Origin: Bacteroidota bacterium
Lineage (GTDB): Bacteria; Bacteroidota; Ignavibacteria; Kryptoniales; JAKASW01
Direction: 5' to 3'
NCBI GenBank assembly: GCA_021789975.1
Contig: JAJYIT010000002.1
Coordinates: 124,001 to 188,000 of the forward strand
Length of the DNA: 64,000 nucleotides
The notes beneath the pieces are model-generated. The model was not told the DNA's origin. It saw only the letters and a program-made list of their open reading frames with translations, and did not search any database. The position numbers and the translations under genes were made by a program. Positions within the stretch are counted from its first letter, which is position 1, and every line of letters begins with the position of its first letter. Positions 34,279 to 41,986 of the stretch are shown here, one piece after another.

Positions 34279-35404
34279 ACGTATCCGGGCGAGTTTGCCC
34301 GGTTAGCGCTTCAACCGCGGCATCATAAACGATCTGTGGAAACAACTGCTCCATGCAATAGACCGGGCGGATATTTTTGCAAATTTCCCACTGATCAGGA
34401 ACCGGTGTTCTGTGTACGCAGCCTATACAAGGCAGATCGACTCGTACAAACTTAGATCGACCGGTGCAATCGAACGGCCCTGTATCGATAGGATCAGTCC
34501 GTCCAAACAGCATCACGACCGGCGTCCCGACGGCGTTCGCAAGATGCATTGTTCCGGTGTCCGGTCCTATCACAAGTCGGCATGCCTTCAATACTCCCAA
34601 TACCTGGCGCAGATTTGTTTTGCCTGCCAGGGTTACCGCAGGAAATTTCATTTTGGACCTAATTGTGTCGATCATTTCTCGTTCAGATCCAATCCCTTCA
34701 AAAATTATATCGACCTTAAGATCGCGAATAAGCAAATCTGCCACCTCGGCAAAATACTCAACCTTCCAATCTTTGTCGGAATTTGGACTGCTGCATGCCG
34801 GGTGAATGCAAACAAGATTAGCGAAACTCTCGATTCCGGACGAAGCAAGTATGTCCCGGCCCAGCATCATCTCCTCGTTGCTGACAGCGAGCTCAGTCGC
34901 AGGAGGAGTCATCTGCGTTGTCCACCCATTCACCGTCTCAAGTTCCGCGAGAGCAGCGTGCACACCGTGCGGTCGCGGGACAAAATAATCCAGCAAAAAT
35001 CCGAGACTGTTCTGAAAACCGACCAGAAATTTCCCTCCCGTCAGCGTAGCCATGGCCGCGTAGTGAGAATTTACTTCCTGTATTACCACCACATCGTATC
35101 TTCGTTTCCGCAGTCCGAGGAAAAATCTCGAATGCGAAGCCACTGAATAATCGGCCGGAATTGGAAAGACATCATCGACAAGAGGAACGTCTTTCATAAG
35201 AGGTACACTTTTATTGCTGGCGGCAAAGTCCAGGACGGCATCCGGAAAATTATCCCGCAATCTTCTCAGTACGGGTGTGACAAAGACGGTATCGCCCACC
35301 AATCCATTCCTCACGATGAGGATTTTGCGGACGTTCTGATGATCCCGCACAAAATGAAGAAATTTGTTCTTTCGAGCCTGTGACAAGTTTGGCAGAATTC
35401 TCAA
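34241..35404 (-). CDS. Glycosyltransferase family 9 (heptosyltransferase-like)
   Basis: A 387-residue GT-B enzyme of the ADP-heptose:LPS heptosyltransferase family. It has KILIVRNGLVGDTVFVTPVL near residue 27, VCIHPACSSPNSDKDW, LVIGPDTGTMHLANAVGTPVV and LFGRTDP. A cysteine-rich segment (CIGC, then C near 345-365) is common in this family. It probably adds a heptose or other sugar to the inner core of lipopolysaccharide or a related glycan on the cytoplasmic face. Four-base overlap with the MsbA-like exporter gene upstream. Confidence 0.9.
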   Translation of the reverse strand: MRILPNLSQARKNKFLHFVRDHQNVRKILIVRNGLVGDTVFVTPVLRRLRDNFPDAVLDFAASNKSVPLMKDVPLVDDVFPIPADYSVASHSRFFLGLRKRRYDVVVIQEVNSHYAAMATLTGGKFLVGFQNSLGFLLDYFVPRPHGVHAALAELETVNGWTTQMTPPATELAVSNEEMMLGRDILASSGIESFANLVCIHPACSSPNSDKDWKVEYFAEVADLLIRDLKVDIIFEGIGSEREMIDTIRSKMKFPAVTLAGKTNLRQVLGVLKACRLVIGPDTGTMHLANAVGTPVVMLFGRTDPIDTGPFDCTGRSKFVRVDLPCIGCVHRTPVPDQWEICKNIRPVYCMEQLFPQIVYDAAVEALTGQTRPDTFESKRRGAHQAE

Positions 35405-37281
35405 TCGCTGAATTGCATTTCGTAAAGCCTCTTGTAGATTCCACCCTTCTGACGGACGAGTTCCTGGTGTTTCCCCCGTTGGACTATTTGGCCACCTTCC
35501 ACGACAATTATCTTGTCGGCATTCTTAATCGTGGAGAGTCGGTGCGCTATCACGATAGAAGTTCTGTTCTGCATCAGCCTTTCTATCGCTTCCTGCACGA
35601 GTAGTTCTGATTCTGAGTCGAGGGCAGAAGTCGCTTCATCAAAGATCATTACTGGTGGGTTCTTCAGAAGTGCACGCGCAATCGAAATCCTCTGGCGCTG
35701 CCCGCCTGACAATTTTGTACCGCGCTCTCCGATCGCCGTATCGTACCCCTGCGGCAATTGCATGATAAACTCATGGGCGTTTGCGGCCCGCGCAGCCTCA
35801 ATTATTCGGTCTGCCGGGTAATCCGCTAGTCCGTAAGCAATGTTGTTCCTGACAGTGTCGTTGAAGAGAATAGTCTCCTGTGAAACTATCCCGATTTGGT
35901 TTCTCAGGGTGCTGATAGAAACGTTCCGCAGGTTCACACCATCTATAAATATATTTCCTTCTGTCGGATCGTAGAATCGTGGTATCAAGTCTATGATTGT
36001 CGTTTTGCCTCCGCCAGACGGTCCGACTATCGCGAGGATCTCACCCTTGGCTGCCGAAAAATTGACTCCCCTTAGGACGGTTGCTCCGTCTGTTCTCGAC
36101 GACCTGCCGATCCTGGATGATGGATATTTGAACCATACGTTCTCGAACTTTATCTCCTGCTTGAAATCACTTACTAAAGCAGCACCCGGAATCTCGGGTA
36201 TACTTCCCTTCTCATCAAGAAGCTCGAAGACTCTCTTGCCTGCGGCCGACGACTCATAAATCCGAGTACTGACCGTCGTCAGCTCTTTAATGGCAGGCAT
36301 CATTTGAAAAATCGCAAATAGAAAGGTTATGAACTCCGCCGGCTTCAATGCTTGCGATTGAAGTACCTGCATGCCTCCGAAGTATATGATGACTCCGGCA
36401 GTGAGGATTGAAAGAAACTCTGTGATCGGGTTTGAGAGATTTCTTATCCGCGTCATCTTCAGCATCGACTTGAAATAATTGTGAGTCTTGCTTTCGAACT
36501 TGTCAATCTCGTATTTCTCCATGCCGAACGAGTGTACCACCTTGATACCGCTTATCGTCTCCTGCAAGAGCGAGGTCAGGTCGGCAATGAGTCTCTGGGA
36601 AAGATCCCCCTGCCTGTGAAGGCGCATTCCCAGCCGGCTTATCGCTATCAGCATGAATGGAGCAACCAGGAACGAGAGCAGCGTGAGCTTCCAGCTCAGG
36701 ATCAATGCAATTGTGAGGTAGACCGCGATAAGAAGTGGTTCCCTAATGAGTGTAACGAAGCTGGCAGTCACACCCCCGTTTATTACGAATACGTCGTTCG
36801 TAATTCTGGATATAAGCGAGCCGGTTCTTTCGCTGGTAAAATACCCGATGGACAAATCTTGAATCTTTCGGTATAAGCTGTTCCGGATATCGCGCATCGA
36901 CCCCTGCTCCACGAAAGCCATGAAGTAGGATTGGGCATAGCCAAAAAGGTTGCGCAGCAGGAAGGCTGCCACTATTACGATGCAAATTCGTATTAACGCC
37001 TCGGATTTCGTTCCGCTGAAAATGAATTCGTTCATGAAGTCCGATGCAATGATTCGTGCCCTGTCCAGAAACCCAGCGGAGCCTGGCAAAGAAGCGGCAT
37101 GTGGAGCGCCCTGGCTAAAAAATGTGTTCAGCAGGGGCACAATCAGGTAGATCGAGACCCCAGAAAATAGCGAGTAAAAAACTGTGGCCAGAACCGACTC
37201 ACCGAGCGGGCGTTTGTAAGGTCTGACGTATCGCAGGAGTCTCAGATAAATTCTAAACGGTTTCTCTTTTGTCCCTGACAT
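35401..37281 (-). CDS. ABC exporter, MsbA-like (permease fused to ATPase)
   Basis: A 626-residue half-transporter. The six-helix type IV exporter domain covers about residues 1-345. The ATPase has Walker A VGPSGGGKTTI, the Q-loop IGIVSQETILF, the signature LSGGQRQR, Walker B VMIFDEATSALD and the switch AHRLSTI. The layout matches MsbA, the homodimeric flippase of lipid A-core, and the adjacent GT9 and WaaE-like GT2 genes support that job. A drug exporter cannot be excluded. Overlaps GT2 by 29 bases and GT9 by 4. Confidence 0.88.
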   Translation of the reverse strand: MSGTKEKPFRIYLRLLRYVRPYKRPLGESVLATVFYSLFSGVSIYLIVPLLNTFFSQGAPHAASLPGSAGFLDRARIIASDFMNEFIFSGTKSEALIRICIVIVAAFLLRNLFGYAQSYFMAFVEQGSMRDIRNSLYRKIQDLSIGYFTSERTGSLISRITNDVFVINGGVTASFVTLIREPLLIAVYLTIALILSWKLTLLSFLVAPFMLIAISRLGMRLHRQGDLSQRLIADLTSLLQETISGIKVVHSFGMEKYEIDKFESKTHNYFKSMLKMTRIRNLSNPITEFLSILTAGVIIYFGGMQVLQSQALKPAEFITFLFAIFQMMPAIKELTTVSTRIYESSAAGKRVFELLDEKGSIPEIPGAALVSDFKQEIKFENVWFKYPSSRIGRSSRTDGATVLRGVNFSAAKGEILAIVGPSGGGKTTIIDLIPRFYDPTEGNIFIDGVNLRNVSISTLRNQIGIVSQETILFNDTVRNNIAYGLADYPADRIIEAARAANAHEFIMQLPQGYDTAIGERGTKLSGGQRQRISIARALLKNPPVMIFDEATSALDSESELLVQEAIERLMQNRTSIVIAHRLSTIKNADKIIVVEGGQIVQRGKHQELVRQKGGIYKRLYEMQFSD

Positions 37282-38011
37282 TCTGTATTTCCCAGATCTT
37301 CATATATACTTGTGCTTTGGTCATCGCATGAATAACTGAAACCATCAACCCGTGTACACCGTCGGTGAAACCGCGGCGCACAACGAAGTGGTGAAAGAAT
37401 TCCCAGACCGGCTTGAAAAACACTTTCATGCCGGTCATTCTTTTTCTTGTGGCTTTCTCCTCGGCCTCGAGTGTGGAATATTCTTCGATCTTCTTAAGGG
37501 TATCTGTAATCGTTCGGTGCGTATAGTGGATGAGCTCCGAGCTAAGATGAGCCGTCTTTCCATCCACTTCAAACCCCTCATGGATCATTCTCGCGGTGAG
37601 CCTGGCATTTGATTTCCTGAAAAGCCTCATCTGATAGTCCGGAGACCACCCGCAGCTCCTTATTACTTTGCCGAGAAAGTAGTTTCGACGCGGAATATAG
37701 AACCCATCCACGATGGAAAAATCCAGGTTCGAGATCTCCTGATGAAGCTCAGGTGAGACTCGCTCGTCGGCGTCAATGCTCAACACCCACTCGTTCCTTG
37801 CTTCATCCATTGAAAACTTCTTTTGCGCGGCGTAACCTTCCCATTTTTTTGTAACTACCCTATCGGTAAACTTCCTGGCAATCTCCACCGTCCGGTCCTT
37901 GCTTTCGGAGTTTACAACGACTATCTCATCGGCCCACTTCACACTTTCCAGGCACTCGGCGATATTTGCCTCTTCTTCACCGGCGATAATAACGACGGAG
38001 ATCTTTTCCAT
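37253..38011 (-). CDS. Glycosyltransferase family 2, WaaE/KdtX-like
   Basis: A 252-residue GT-A enzyme. It has the N-terminal VVIIAGEEEANIAECLESVKWADEIVVVNS form and the DxD-type motif SIDADERVS near residue 92, then NYFLGKVIRSCGWSPDYQMRLF. This wording is close to WaaE/KdtX beta-1,4-glucosyltransferases of LPS core synthesis. It heads the envelope cluster GT2-ABC-GT9-FkbM. ATG start at 38011; leuS lies 104 bases upstream on the same strand. Confidence 0.88.
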   Translation of the reverse strand: MEKISVVIIAGEEEANIAECLESVKWADEIVVVNSESKDRTVEIARKFTDRVVTKKWEGYAAQKKFSMDEARNEWVLSIDADERVSPELHQEISNLDFSIVDGFYIPRRNYFLGKVIRSCGWSPDYQMRLFRKSNARLTARMIHEGFEVDGKTAHLSSELIHYTHRTITDTLKKIEEYSTLEAEEKATRKRMTGMKVFFKPVWEFFHHFVVRRGFTDGVHGLMVSVIHAMTKAQVYMKIWEIQNVRDKRETV

Positions 38012-38115: not shown

Positions 38116-40632
38116 TCACTTCACGACGAAGTTTACGAGTCTGTTCCTGACCACCACTGCCTTGACAATCTGTTTCCCATCAAGGTATTTCTTAACGTTA
38201 GGCTCTTCTGCCGCCAGTGATTTGACTCGCTGCTCATCCGAATCAACCGGGACGACCAGTTTTGACCTAATCTTACCGTTGACCTGGATGACGACCGTGG
38301 CAGTGTCTTCGACAATGGCATCGACATCGAACTGAACCCAACGCTTGTTCCTGAAAATCGACGGCTTTCCACCAATCATTACGTTCAGTTCCTCTGAAAT
38401 ATGCGGAGCAAATGGGGAAAGAAGGATGTTGAAACTTCTCAGGACAAAATTCTTCACAGAGCCGTCTATTTTCGCCTGACTTTCCATGGGGCCCGCACTT
38501 CCAGCAGATGAGACAACTTGTTCCCCGGCGAGAGTATCGGTGTAATAATTCAGAAACTCCATCATAGCCGCTATTGCAGTATTGAATCGGAAATTCTCTG
38601 TATCTTCCGTTACCTTCTTCATCAATTGGTTTATTTTGCGATAAACATCCTGTTCCGCCCTGTTGAAATCCTTGATGGAAAGGTGCTCTGTCTCCGATTT
38701 TTCCACTCGTCCCGCTTCCGCCTCGTACAACTCAAAGACTCTGTTCAAGAATCGGAAGACGCCCGTAATTCCTTTGTCGCTCCAATCGCCACCTTCGTTG
38801 TACGGTCCCATGAACATTAGAAACATCCGAAAAGTATCGCCGCCGTACTTCTGAACGAATTGGTCGGGGTTGACCACGTTTCCGCGGGACTTAGACATCT
38901 TCGCGCCCTGATTCGTGATCGTGCCCTGGTGCACCAGGCTCTGGAACGGCTCATCGAAATTGAGATAGCCGCCGTCCTTAAGAGCTTTGATGATAAAGCG
39001 TGCATAAAGCAGGTGCATAGTCGCATGCTCGGCTCCTCCGACATACTTATCTACGGGCAGCCATTGGGAAACCAAATCCTTGTCGAAAGGAGCAGAGTCG
39101 AGATGTGGCGTCATGTACCTCAAAAAGTACCAGGAGGAATCAACAAATGTATCCATAGTGTCGACGTCGCGCTTCGCCGGCTTTCCACATCTCGGGCAAT
39201 GAACGTTGACGAACTTTTCCGACCTTGCGAGAGGGGACTCGCCTGTCGGCTTAAACTCCACGTCGTACGGTAGCAGCACGGGTAAATCTTTTTCATCTAC
39301 CGGGACTTCTCCGCAAGACTCGCAATGAATAATCGGAATCGGAGCACCCCAATATCTTTGACGGGAAAGAAGCCAGTCACGTATCCGATAATTTACTTTC
39401 CGTCGCCCCAAGCCTTTCTTTTCAAGCTCGTTCGCGATTCCATCCCAGACCTTAGTGCTCTCCATGCCGGTGAATGGTCCGCTGCTCACACCTAATCCTT
39501 CATCGACAAAAGCAGCTTCGAGTGGCTCCTTCAATTTACCATCTCGCGGCTGTACCACCACGCGTATAGGAAGACTGTACTTCACGGCAAACTCAAAATC
39601 GCGCTCATCGTGCGCAGGCACTGCCATTACCGCTCCCGTACCATAAGTACCGAGCACATAATCGGCGATCCAAATTGGAATCTTTTCGCCGTTGATTGGA
39701 TTCACTGCGAAAGCGCCGGTAGGTACACCTGTCTTCTCTTTTGTGGTAGAGGTTCGTTCTATTTCATTTTCATGCGCGACAAAATCGACGTATTCGTTGA
39801 CCTTTGCCTTGCACTCGTCTGTAGTAACTTCCCGGACAAGTGGATGTTCGGGGGCCAAAACGACATAGGTTGCACCGAATAGTGTATCGGGCCTTGTGGT
39901 GAAGACCGAAATTCGAGAATCGCTGTCGGCAATTCTAAATTCTATCTCAACGCCCTCACTCCTGCCGATCCAATTTTTCTGCATCAGTTTTGTTCGTTCC
40001 GGCCAGTCGATCCGGTCAAGTCCCTCCAGAAGAGCATCTGCATAGGCTGTAATCCTGAAAAACCACTGAGTCATCGCTTTTCTGACAACCGGTGTGCCAC
40101 ATCGCTCGCATATCCCGTCGACGACCTGTTCGTTTGCGAGCACGGTCTGATCCTTGGGGCACCAATTCACCGGTGCGTTGGCCCGGTAGGCGAGACCTTT
40201 TTTGTAAAGCTGGAGAAAGACCCACTGTGTCCATCTGTAGTATTCGGGTTTCGATGTGTCGACTTCATGATCAAAATCATACATCGCGCCCATCGTCTTA
40301 AGTTGCTCTCTGATATCGGCTATATTCTTGTCGGTGCTGTCCTGAGGATGAACTCCCGTTTTGATGGCATAATTTTCTGCTGGAAGACCGAAAGCATCGT
40401 ACCCCATCGGTTCAAACACATTGAAACCATTCAGAAGCTTGAACCTTGCCCACGTGTCCGTCGGACCAAAGTTATACCAGTGGCCGATGTGCAGTTTATC
40501 GGCGCTGGGATAAAGAAACATCACGAGGCAATAGAGCTTGTTCTCTAACAGCGTCATATCGACGCGGTATGTTTTGTTATCTTCCCAGAACTTTTGCCAT
40601 TTCTTTTCGATTGCAGTGAAGTCGTATTTCAT
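38116..40632 (-). CDS. leuS: Leucine--tRNA ligase
   Basis: An 838-residue class Ia synthetase. The HIGH motif is at residues 48-51 (LHIGH) and KMSKS near residue 580 (GAKMSKSRGN). The CP1 editing domain lies between, with TTRPDTLFGATYV and the conserved AVPAHDERD. Zinc-type CxxC pairs (CERC, CESC, CPRC) are present. A normal bacterial LeuRS in length. The start ATG overlaps the stop of the recombinase-like gene by 4 bases, so the two are translated together. Confidence 0.97.
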   Translation of the reverse strand: MKYDFTAIEKKWQKFWEDNKTYRVDMTLLENKLYCLVMFLYPSADKLHIGHWYNFGPTDTWARFKLLNGFNVFEPMGYDAFGLPAENYAIKTGVHPQDSTDKNIADIREQLKTMGAMYDFDHEVDTSKPEYYRWTQWVFLQLYKKGLAYRANAPVNWCPKDQTVLANEQVVDGICERCGTPVVRKAMTQWFFRITAYADALLEGLDRIDWPERTKLMQKNWIGRSEGVEIEFRIADSDSRISVFTTRPDTLFGATYVVLAPEHPLVREVTTDECKAKVNEYVDFVAHENEIERTSTTKEKTGVPTGAFAVNPINGEKIPIWIADYVLGTYGTGAVMAVPAHDERDFEFAVKYSLPIRVVVQPRDGKLKEPLEAAFVDEGLGVSSGPFTGMESTKVWDGIANELEKKGLGRRKVNYRIRDWLLSRQRYWGAPIPIIHCESCGEVPVDEKDLPVLLPYDVEFKPTGESPLARSEKFVNVHCPRCGKPAKRDVDTMDTFVDSSWYFLRYMTPHLDSAPFDKDLVSQWLPVDKYVGGAEHATMHLLYARFIIKALKDGGYLNFDEPFQSLVHQGTITNQGAKMSKSRGNVVNPDQFVQKYGGDTFRMFLMFMGPYNEGGDWSDKGITGVFRFLNRVFELYEAEAGRVEKSETEHLSIKDFNRAEQDVYRKINQLMKKVTEDTENFRFNTAIAAMMEFLNYYTDTLAGEQVVSSAGSAGPMESQAKIDGSVKNFVLRSFNILLSPFAPHISEELNVMIGGKPSIFRNKRWVQFDVDAIVEDTATVVIQVNGKIRSKLVVPVDSDEQRVKSLAAEEPNVKKYLDGKQIVKAVVVRNRLVNFVVK

Positions 40633-41528
40633 CTTATTCCGGCGATAGCTTTCGAGTTTGTTATGATTTTCTTGAATGGGACATTGCTCTTGAAACGCAT
40701 AAACTCTCTTATCTCTTCGAGAGTCCTCCCCTGGTTCATCAATTTCACGGCGCAGTAGGTACGGAGTGAATCAAGCCGCAATCTCTTCTCTGCACCCAAT
40801 CTCAGGTGTTTTTGCATCGCTGCACGAACGCCGCGAAGCGATAAACGAACCGTCGTCACCTTCCCTGCTCTAACCGTTCCGAACAGCGGGTGATCACCCA
40901 AGACAGGTCCCCTTGCATTCACGTATTCTGAGAGCACCTGGCTTGCTTGTCGCGTCAGGGTAATTACCTCGAATCTCCCCCTTGCGGCTTTCGGTCTCAC
41001 CCACAACTCGACCTTCTTATTGTTTGACTTCAGATCTCCGATATCGGCATTGATGAGCTCCGAAATTGTCGCACCACTTTCCAGAATCAGCGTTAGAAAT
41101 GCGTGGTCGCGTTTACCGATGATCGTCGAGCGATCGATACCGGATACTGCTCGCATGATCTCTGAAAGCTTTGCACCAAACACTTTGTATGTCTGTGCCG
41201 TCCCGTGAAAACTCCAAGCAGGGTTCTTTGAAAGAACCTTAGACTCGACGAGAAACTCACAGAACCGACGCGAACCGGTCAGATAAGTATTCACGGTATT
41301 AGTCCGGAGCTTCTCCTGATTTAGCAGCCACAGCCTGAACTGACTGAAGTCACCCGGGGTGAAACTAAACGGGACCGAGTCTGCATATGCTATGAGGCGG
41401 TCGACAGCTTTCAGATAGACATGTTTGGTAGTTCCGCTGTCGAATTTCATGGACGTTCCGAACTCTTTCACCAAATTTCTGAGCCTGTCTTGTGGAATGT
41501 TAACCGGGAGAAAATCGTCCGCTGTCAT
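40629..41528 (-). CDS. Tyrosine-recombinase fold protein lacking the catalytic residues
   Basis: A 299-residue protein with the XerC/D layout: a SAM-like N-terminal DNA-binding domain (about 1-110) and a C-terminal catalytic-type domain (about 130-299) with GKRDHAFLTLILESG and KVELWVRPK. The residues needed for strand exchange are not there. The first Arg (GLRVSEL) is replaced by Thr in GATISEL (about residue 154). HTLRH becomes DSLRT with only Arg kept. The LGH His and the nucleophilic Tyr are replaced by hydrophobic residues in the tail (EFMRFK..., KIITN). It probably binds DNA or another partner without cutting. Coupled to leuS by a 4-base overlap; no other mobile-element sign. Confidence 0.8.
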   Translation of the reverse strand: MTADDFLPVNIPQDRLRNLVKEFGTSMKFDSGTTKHVYLKAVDRLIAYADSVPFSFTPGDFSQFRLWLLNQEKLRTNTVNTYLTGSRRFCEFLVESKVLSKNPAWSFHGTAQTYKVFGAKLSEIMRAVSGIDRSTIIGKRDHAFLTLILESGATISELINADIGDLKSNNKKVELWVRPKAARGRFEVITLTRQASQVLSEYVNARGPVLGDHPLFGTVRAGKVTTVRLSLRGVRAAMQKHLRLGAEKRLRLDSLRTYCAVKLMNQGRTLEEIREFMRFKSNVPFKKIITNSKAIAGIR

Positions 41529-41986
41529 TTTTCATTGAATTTAACGCGGATTCGAGTCATATCCAATGGCGGCAAGAAGCGGCGCGTAACGCCTCACTGG
41601 CAATGTTGTGTTTAGCTCCAATGGTTTATCCAAACGCCAAGATCGCCATCCTCGCAAAGGAAATTGGTAATAAGACGAGCACGTTGCGCACCTGGCAGGC
41701 ATAGCGGTTAACACATGAGGTGGTGAGGTCCCTTCTGCCTTGCAGTTGTAGTTTCCTGTCTCGTGATGCTCGGTACCAAATCACTATGGGAAGGGAGGAA
41801 TTCAGAGAACGCAATAAGAAATAATGATTCCAACCGCATGTCTCGCAGACATTCTCACTGTTTCTTAGTCGTTAAGACAGATTTATGCTTTCGCCGGAGA
41901 AAGTAAACTTCTAAGAGCACAATTATTGAAACAATAGCCCACCTTATGTATTTTGAAATATACTTCTTAAACACTTGAAGAGTGAA
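41529..41986. other. 458-base intergenic region without recognised gene
   Basis: It separates the divergent recombinase-like gene (minus) and the SDR gene (plus). Short open frames exist on both strands but none has a ribosome-binding site and a recognisable product. A direct repeat TCCAATGG occurs at about 41561 and 41616. The right end is AT-rich (TATTTTGAAATATAC near 41950) and probably carries the SDR promoter. No tRNA, terminator or att-like site could be supported. Confidence 0.3.

Follow-up and report, generated by a model that had tools for sequence, protein, structure and literature searches.

The window that we analysed, a stretch of 64,000 nucleotides from a Bacteroidota contig (JAJYIT010000002.1, positions 124,001 to 188,000), encodes a homologue of the tyrosine recombinases (P0001) with a replaced active site, immediately followed by leuS and then by genes for a glycosyltransferase and an ABC transporter; a candidate promoter precedes the recombinase gene (Table 1).

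Table 1. Features of the recombinase-leuS locus, in window coordinates.
Feature	Coordinates	Strand	Basis or remark
Catalytically dead tyrosine recombinase homologue (P0001)	40629..41528	-	ORF, 299 aa, ATG start
Codon 154, Thr of GATISEL, Arg-I position	41067..41069	-	Alignment to intact XerC/XerD
Codon 180, Lys, beta-hairpin Lys, retained	40989..40991	-	Alignment to intact XerC/XerD
Codon 253, Asp at the His-II position of HxxRH	40770..40772	-	Alignment; invariant in genus
Codon 256, Arg, Arg-II, retained	40761..40763	-	Alignment; invariant in genus
Codon 257, Thr where the RH pair has His	40758..40760	-	Alignment; invariant in genus
Codon 279, Phe at the His-III position	40692..40694	-	Alignment; invariant in genus
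Codon 288, Ile at the Tyr nucleophile position	40665..40667	-	Alignment; I or L in genus
leuS, leucyl-tRNA synthetase	38116..40632	-	Start overlaps recombinase stop as ATGA (40629-40632)
Glycosyltransferase family 2, third in conserved gene order	37253..38011	-	Pfam; order matches Ignavibacteria locus L126
ABC transporter, MsbA-like layout, fourth in conserved gene order	35401..37281	-	Pfam; order matches L126
Candidate Bacteroidota-type promoter, TTG-N20-TAAATTC	41537..41566	-	No other upstream block is conserved in the 13 genus loci

The Pfam scan of the window protein placed the Phage_integrase domain (PF00589; 38.3 bits against a cut-off of 27.1) on residues 135-280, recovered an N-terminal SAM-like domain (PF13495) likewise above its cut-off, and detected no zinc-finger family. 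An AlphaFold run that took in 36 family members gave a model of the protein (pLDDT 87.8, pTM 0.67) whose best matches in the PDB, as retrieved with Foldseek, were Cre-DNA complexes (TM 0.72). Together these results identify the core-binding and catalytic domains and the C-clamp of the tyrosine recombinase superfamily, in keeping with the XerC/XerD fold landmarks on which the original prediction was built. Public domain models place the family in the phage-integrase and XerC/XerD families; the best NCBIfam matches of the window protein are XerC and XerD (TIGR02224 and TIGR02225), whose two-domain fold and length it shares, at 61.7 and 57.5 bits versus equivalog cut-offs of 335 and 330. A direct phmmer search of the PDB sequences with the window protein found no match, and XerD was reached there only with a profile of the family. 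The profile also matched chain 14 of PDB 9i5v (labelled RaiA), which we rejected as a family member, it being an XerC-RaiA fusion with His-Arg-His and Tyr motifs; this chain of 401 residues, with the XerC-like domain first, is in itself a fusion of a recombinase to a hibernation factor (RaiA, the ribosome-associated inhibitor). We found no publication on the dead family in a search of the open literature.

When aligned with intact XerC and XerD of related genomes and of the same genome (L002 and L001, respectively), which read R/K/H/R/H/H/Y, the window protein reads T154/K180/D253/R256/T257/F279/I288. The first Arg, both His positions and the Tyr are indeed replaced, as had been noted from the sequence (T154, D253/T257, F279 and I288), to which we add that the hairpin Lys and Arg-II are retained; the R-K-H-R-H/W-Y set of a competent enzyme is absent. 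Within the genus the Arg-I position is occupied by A, S, T or K, and no substitute nucleophile is seen at the Tyr position. Catalytic inactivity is thus well supported by the residues present. The protein is basic (pI 10.3, net charge +23), and R87, R140, K180, R206, R228, R232, R235 and R278 are basic residues conserved in more than 90% of the family; however, basicity does not differ significantly between the family and intact recombinases (p=0.11), and we accordingly rejected charge as a marker of an altered mode of DNA engagement. The tails C-terminal to the Tyr position are short or variable in the family, given which the exchange helix used in synapsis, as well as oligomerisation on DNA, may have been lost.

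Profile scores do not separate dead from intact enzymes (175-218 bits for intact plasmid recombinases, 180 for an intact one encoded in the window's own genome); hence, we read the catalytic residues directly. In nine families, a class-wide profile search recovered the gene from 51 of the 52 genomes sampled, with a nearly all-or-none presence by taxonomic family (f1 13/13, f2 7/7, f5 5/5, f8 5/6, f13 6/6, f16 4/4, f17 7/7, f24 3/3 and f27 1/1), and only XerC/D-level scores in the remaining families of the class. Orthologues occur in all 13 genomes of the window's genus and all seven of the sister family, and named loci come from Kryptonia, Kapaibacterium, Ignavibacteria, Rhodothermus, Salinibacter and Salinivenus, to which a search at the level of the phylum adds further Rhodothermia-type families. 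No relative of the dead family emerged from a scan of viral contigs, and phage matches, judged on identity, reached at most 29.7%. Rather than the sporadic presence and variable insertion site of a mobile-element integrase, the gene shows the same neighbours in 13/13 genus genomes; this synteny, which extends to 6/6 readable loci of the sister family, supports vertical inheritance and agrees with the earlier suggestion that the gene is not mobile.

In a tree built with the seven catalytic columns masked, which is unrooted and has long branches, a single branch (UFBoot 94, SH-aLRT 90) separates the dead sequences from the intact ones, with one change in 97% of the bootstrap trees; the window protein, with its replaced Arg-I, lies on the dead side. 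Common ancestry of the dead family is well supported by this sequence comparison. The intact enzymes closest to this family are encoded on small plasmids of Streptococcus (pSMQ308), Staphylococcus and Flavobacterium and, in the window's own genome, at a locus on contig C44. The plasmid enzymes have the GLxxxE, QGKGRxxK and SLRHTA motifs in common with the dead family, but are plasmid-borne and retain the complete R/K/H/R/H/H/Y set; the four best-scoring ones, whose residues we read, are intact. The C44 locus (~5.2-7.2 kb) holds two adjacent tyrosine recombinase genes (L022/L003), the first of which has an intact R/K/H/R/H/H/Y set and is, at 33% identity, closer to the family than any other intact recombinase of this genome. 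The window's genus sits on a very long branch, and its grouping with Kryptonium of the sister family was neither recovered in the gene tree nor rejected (AU p=0.36), likely owing to long-branch effects. As far as an unrooted, long-branch tree can suggest, the simplest account would be a single ancestral loss of Arg-I following the capture of a plasmid-type recombinase.

Because intact XerC and XerD are present, dimer resolution in this organism does not rest on the dead recombinase. Their presence is nonetheless compatible with a role for it as a non-catalytic partner or antagonist of the XerC/XerD-dif system that would control dimer resolution by occupying or bridging dif-like half-sites or by entering mixed complexes. 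The fold is identical, and the Arg-I mutants Cre R173A and Flpe R191A, though catalytically defective, still bind and synapse their DNA sites (PMC4381057). Nevertheless, we regard such a role as unlikely: the family is closer to plasmid recombinases than to XerC/D, with the window protein standing apart from the XerC and XerD of its own genome in the tree; many Bacteroidota families that possess XerC/D are without the dead family; and its short, variable tails do not carry the HPR motif of XerC/XerD tails.

The gene neighborhood bears on a second alternative. In every genome of the genus leuS lies directly downstream of the recombinase gene, and the four-base overlap predicted for the window recurs in 12 of the 13; the exception (L020 in genome G011), which is also the sole genus orthologue with a C-terminal extension, has leuS after a gap of 35 bp. 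The sister family, which includes Kryptonium, has the recombinase gene 29-94 bp before leuS in all six genomes whose locus was readable, and several Ignavibacteria loci preserve the whole window order of recombinase, leuS, glycosyltransferase 2 and ABC transporter. No ortholog with an intact catalytic set was found at the leuS locus in the comparison that had been proposed as a check. Upstream of the recombinase gene, the search for an autoregulatory operator returned only a promoter-like block of ~45 bp as conserved among the 13 genus loci. The candidate promoter within it, recognised by its fit to the known Bacteroidetes consensus, lies ~8 nt before the recombinase ATG and presumably serves both genes; as this is the only conserved upstream block and leuS comes directly after, it is probably this promoter, together with coupling, on which leuS depends. 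In the window's genus the recombinase thus probably heads the leuS operon, co-transcribed and translationally coupled with leuS.

The tie to leuS, on which the original prediction laid weight, stands for Kryptonia and part of Ignavibacteria but not for the family at large, which is much older and broader and has other neighbors elsewhere. In Kapabacteria and Rhodothermia these include a cell-wall amidase as well as genes that, from their sequences, we take to be dusB, an E2-type acyltransferase and secA. We consequently rejected leuS linkage as a clue to the function of the whole family, to which leuS is not the key. In two Kapabacteria loci (L092 and L127) the dead recombinase gene overlaps the next gene by four bases, a coupling unlike that with leuS; this gene codes for an N-acetylmuramoyl-L-alanine amidase in L092 (Pfam), and its L127 counterpart is homologous. 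This distribution also makes it improbable that the recombinase has exchanged DNA for RNA and become an RNA-binding or translation-linked regulator of leuS and its neighbors, for which the ATGA coupling, the recurrence of leuS directly downstream in part of Ignavibacteria as well as in the sister family, and the capacity of a basic protein encoded beside leuS to act on RNA could be adduced; moreover, both the predicted fold and the conserved helices belong to a DNA clamp.

The replacements themselves vary by lineage around a constant element. Among 99 distinct family sequences Arg-I is never R (S76/T14/A5/K2/Q1/N1), while the hairpin position is K in 92/99 and the Tyr is kept in 81/99. At one extreme Arg-I alone is missing, as in L186 and L187 (S/K/H/R/H/H/Y); at the other, the f50 lineage has lost nearly every catalytic residue. 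Between these, nearly all Rhodothermia-type members examined also have Arg-II replaced by Thr, most members from Kapabacteria and Ignavibacteria have Phe or Tyr at His-II and Ile or Leu at His-III, Kryptonium has Tyr at His-II, Lys at Arg-II and Leu at His-III, and the window's genus, beyond Arg-I, has D/T/F/I at His-II, the RH His, His-III and Tyr. Three phylum-level relatives (L177 N/A/G/R/L/P/F, L178 S/K/Q/T/H/P/D and L190 A/K/H/T/H/H/S) display further, independent losses. The frequent retention of the Tyr and the loss of Arg-I alone in L186 and L187 might suggest that at least the less altered lineages remain active recombinases with a non-canonical active site. We consider this highly improbable: replacement of Arg-I blocks recombination by Cre and Flp (PMC4381057), Arg-II too is lost in nearly all of the Rhodothermia-type members examined, and the window's genus has neither Arg-I, nor either His, nor the Tyr or a stand-in for it at that position.

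Orthologues with an open frame of conserved length are found in 13/13 genus genomes, where they are 47-69% identical to the window protein and repeat its catalytic replacements in every case, with D253, R256, T257 and F279 invariant. The dN/dS ratio, for which the original prediction had asked, is 0.032-0.037 in the closest genus pairs (Nei-Gojobori), with no sign of decay. Given this recurrence, the conserved length and a dN/dS of ~0.03, the replaced set is not a matter of chance or sequencing error, and strong purifying selection on the recombinase in the window's genus is well supported. Entropy within the genus is lowest in RLDSLRTYC, which is the rebuilt HxxRH motif, and in TxSRRFCEF (TGSRRFCEF) of the core-binding helix; that rebuilt motifs are the most conserved, at such a dN/dS, is the pattern of a new constrained function rather than of drift after loss. 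A decaying pseudogene, which the loss of catalytic residues in all lineages and the very long branch of the window's genus might otherwise bring to mind, is contradicted by these selection data, by the conserved promoter and by the fact that what were once catalytic motifs now rank with the most conserved parts of the protein.

The reading that we favor, and hold to be probable, is that these proteins constitute a family of domesticated tyrosine recombinases, unnamed and inherited vertically, which lost DNA cleavage before several Bacteroidota classes diverged and were kept as DNA-binding proteins with an architectural or regulatory role. A plasmid-type recombinase would have been captured by the chromosome, losing Arg-I first and further catalytic residues later by lineage, while the two-domain C-clamp that holds DNA was retained; this clamp would engage a chromosomal site, by binding or by bridging, and its remodelled pocket (RLDSLRTYC, MRFKSN) would grip the backbone rather than cut it. 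DNA binding by the family is likely by analogy: Cre R173A, Flpe R191A and TnsF all bind DNA, making a dead clamp that still does so mechanistically plausible. TnsF, the target selector of Tn6022-type Tn7 transposons (Faure et al. 2023, PMC10293859), is a tyrosine recombinase derived from an active mobile-element enzyme, inactivated and kept for sequence-specific DNA binding, and the window family would resemble it in kind as a dead recombinase serving as a DNA binder. However, TnsF is transposon-encoded and combines N-terminal zinc fingers (~199 aa), tandem core-binding domains and a partial catalytic domain with a TniQ partner (PMC10293859), whereas the window protein is a compact, full-length two-domain recombinase with a full catalytic domain, encoded on the chromosome among leuS, glycosyltransferase, ABC transporter and short-chain dehydrogenase genes.

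A more specific form of this domesticated DNA-binding role, in which the family clamps or bridges defined chromosomal sites as a chromosome-organising or site-marking protein in several Bacteroidota classes, can be put forward only tentatively; if true, a dead recombinase would fill a chromosome-organising role normally played by unrelated proteins. Most known cases of a catalytically dead recombinase that serves in DNA binding, TnsF among them, come from mobile elements; here, a family of the host chromosome has lost the chemistry yet preserved the recombinase fold while several bacterial classes diverged. It is a candidate for a new DNA-organising or regulatory factor in Bacteroidota, and its stepwise series of losses, from Arg-I alone to lineage-specific sets, lends itself to the study of how an enzyme becomes a binding protein. 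The streptococcal XerD-like protein (XerDL), which adjoins scpAB, is a chromosomal Xer paralogue with incomplete catalytic residues that is not known to take part in dif recombination; by its description, it differs from the window family in phylum and neighbors.

Elsewhere in the window's own genome, short phage-integrase fragments (80 aa at C8:28610-28774, and 122 aa with an internal TGA at C83:86532-86720) are probable remnants of mobile elements. Within the window, the divergent short-chain dehydrogenase gene has upstream of it, at 41923-41936, an exact TATTGTTTCAATAA (near-palindromic TTATTGAAACAATA); most genus relatives also carry TATTGTTTCAATAA ahead of this gene, of which it is likely the operator or promoter.
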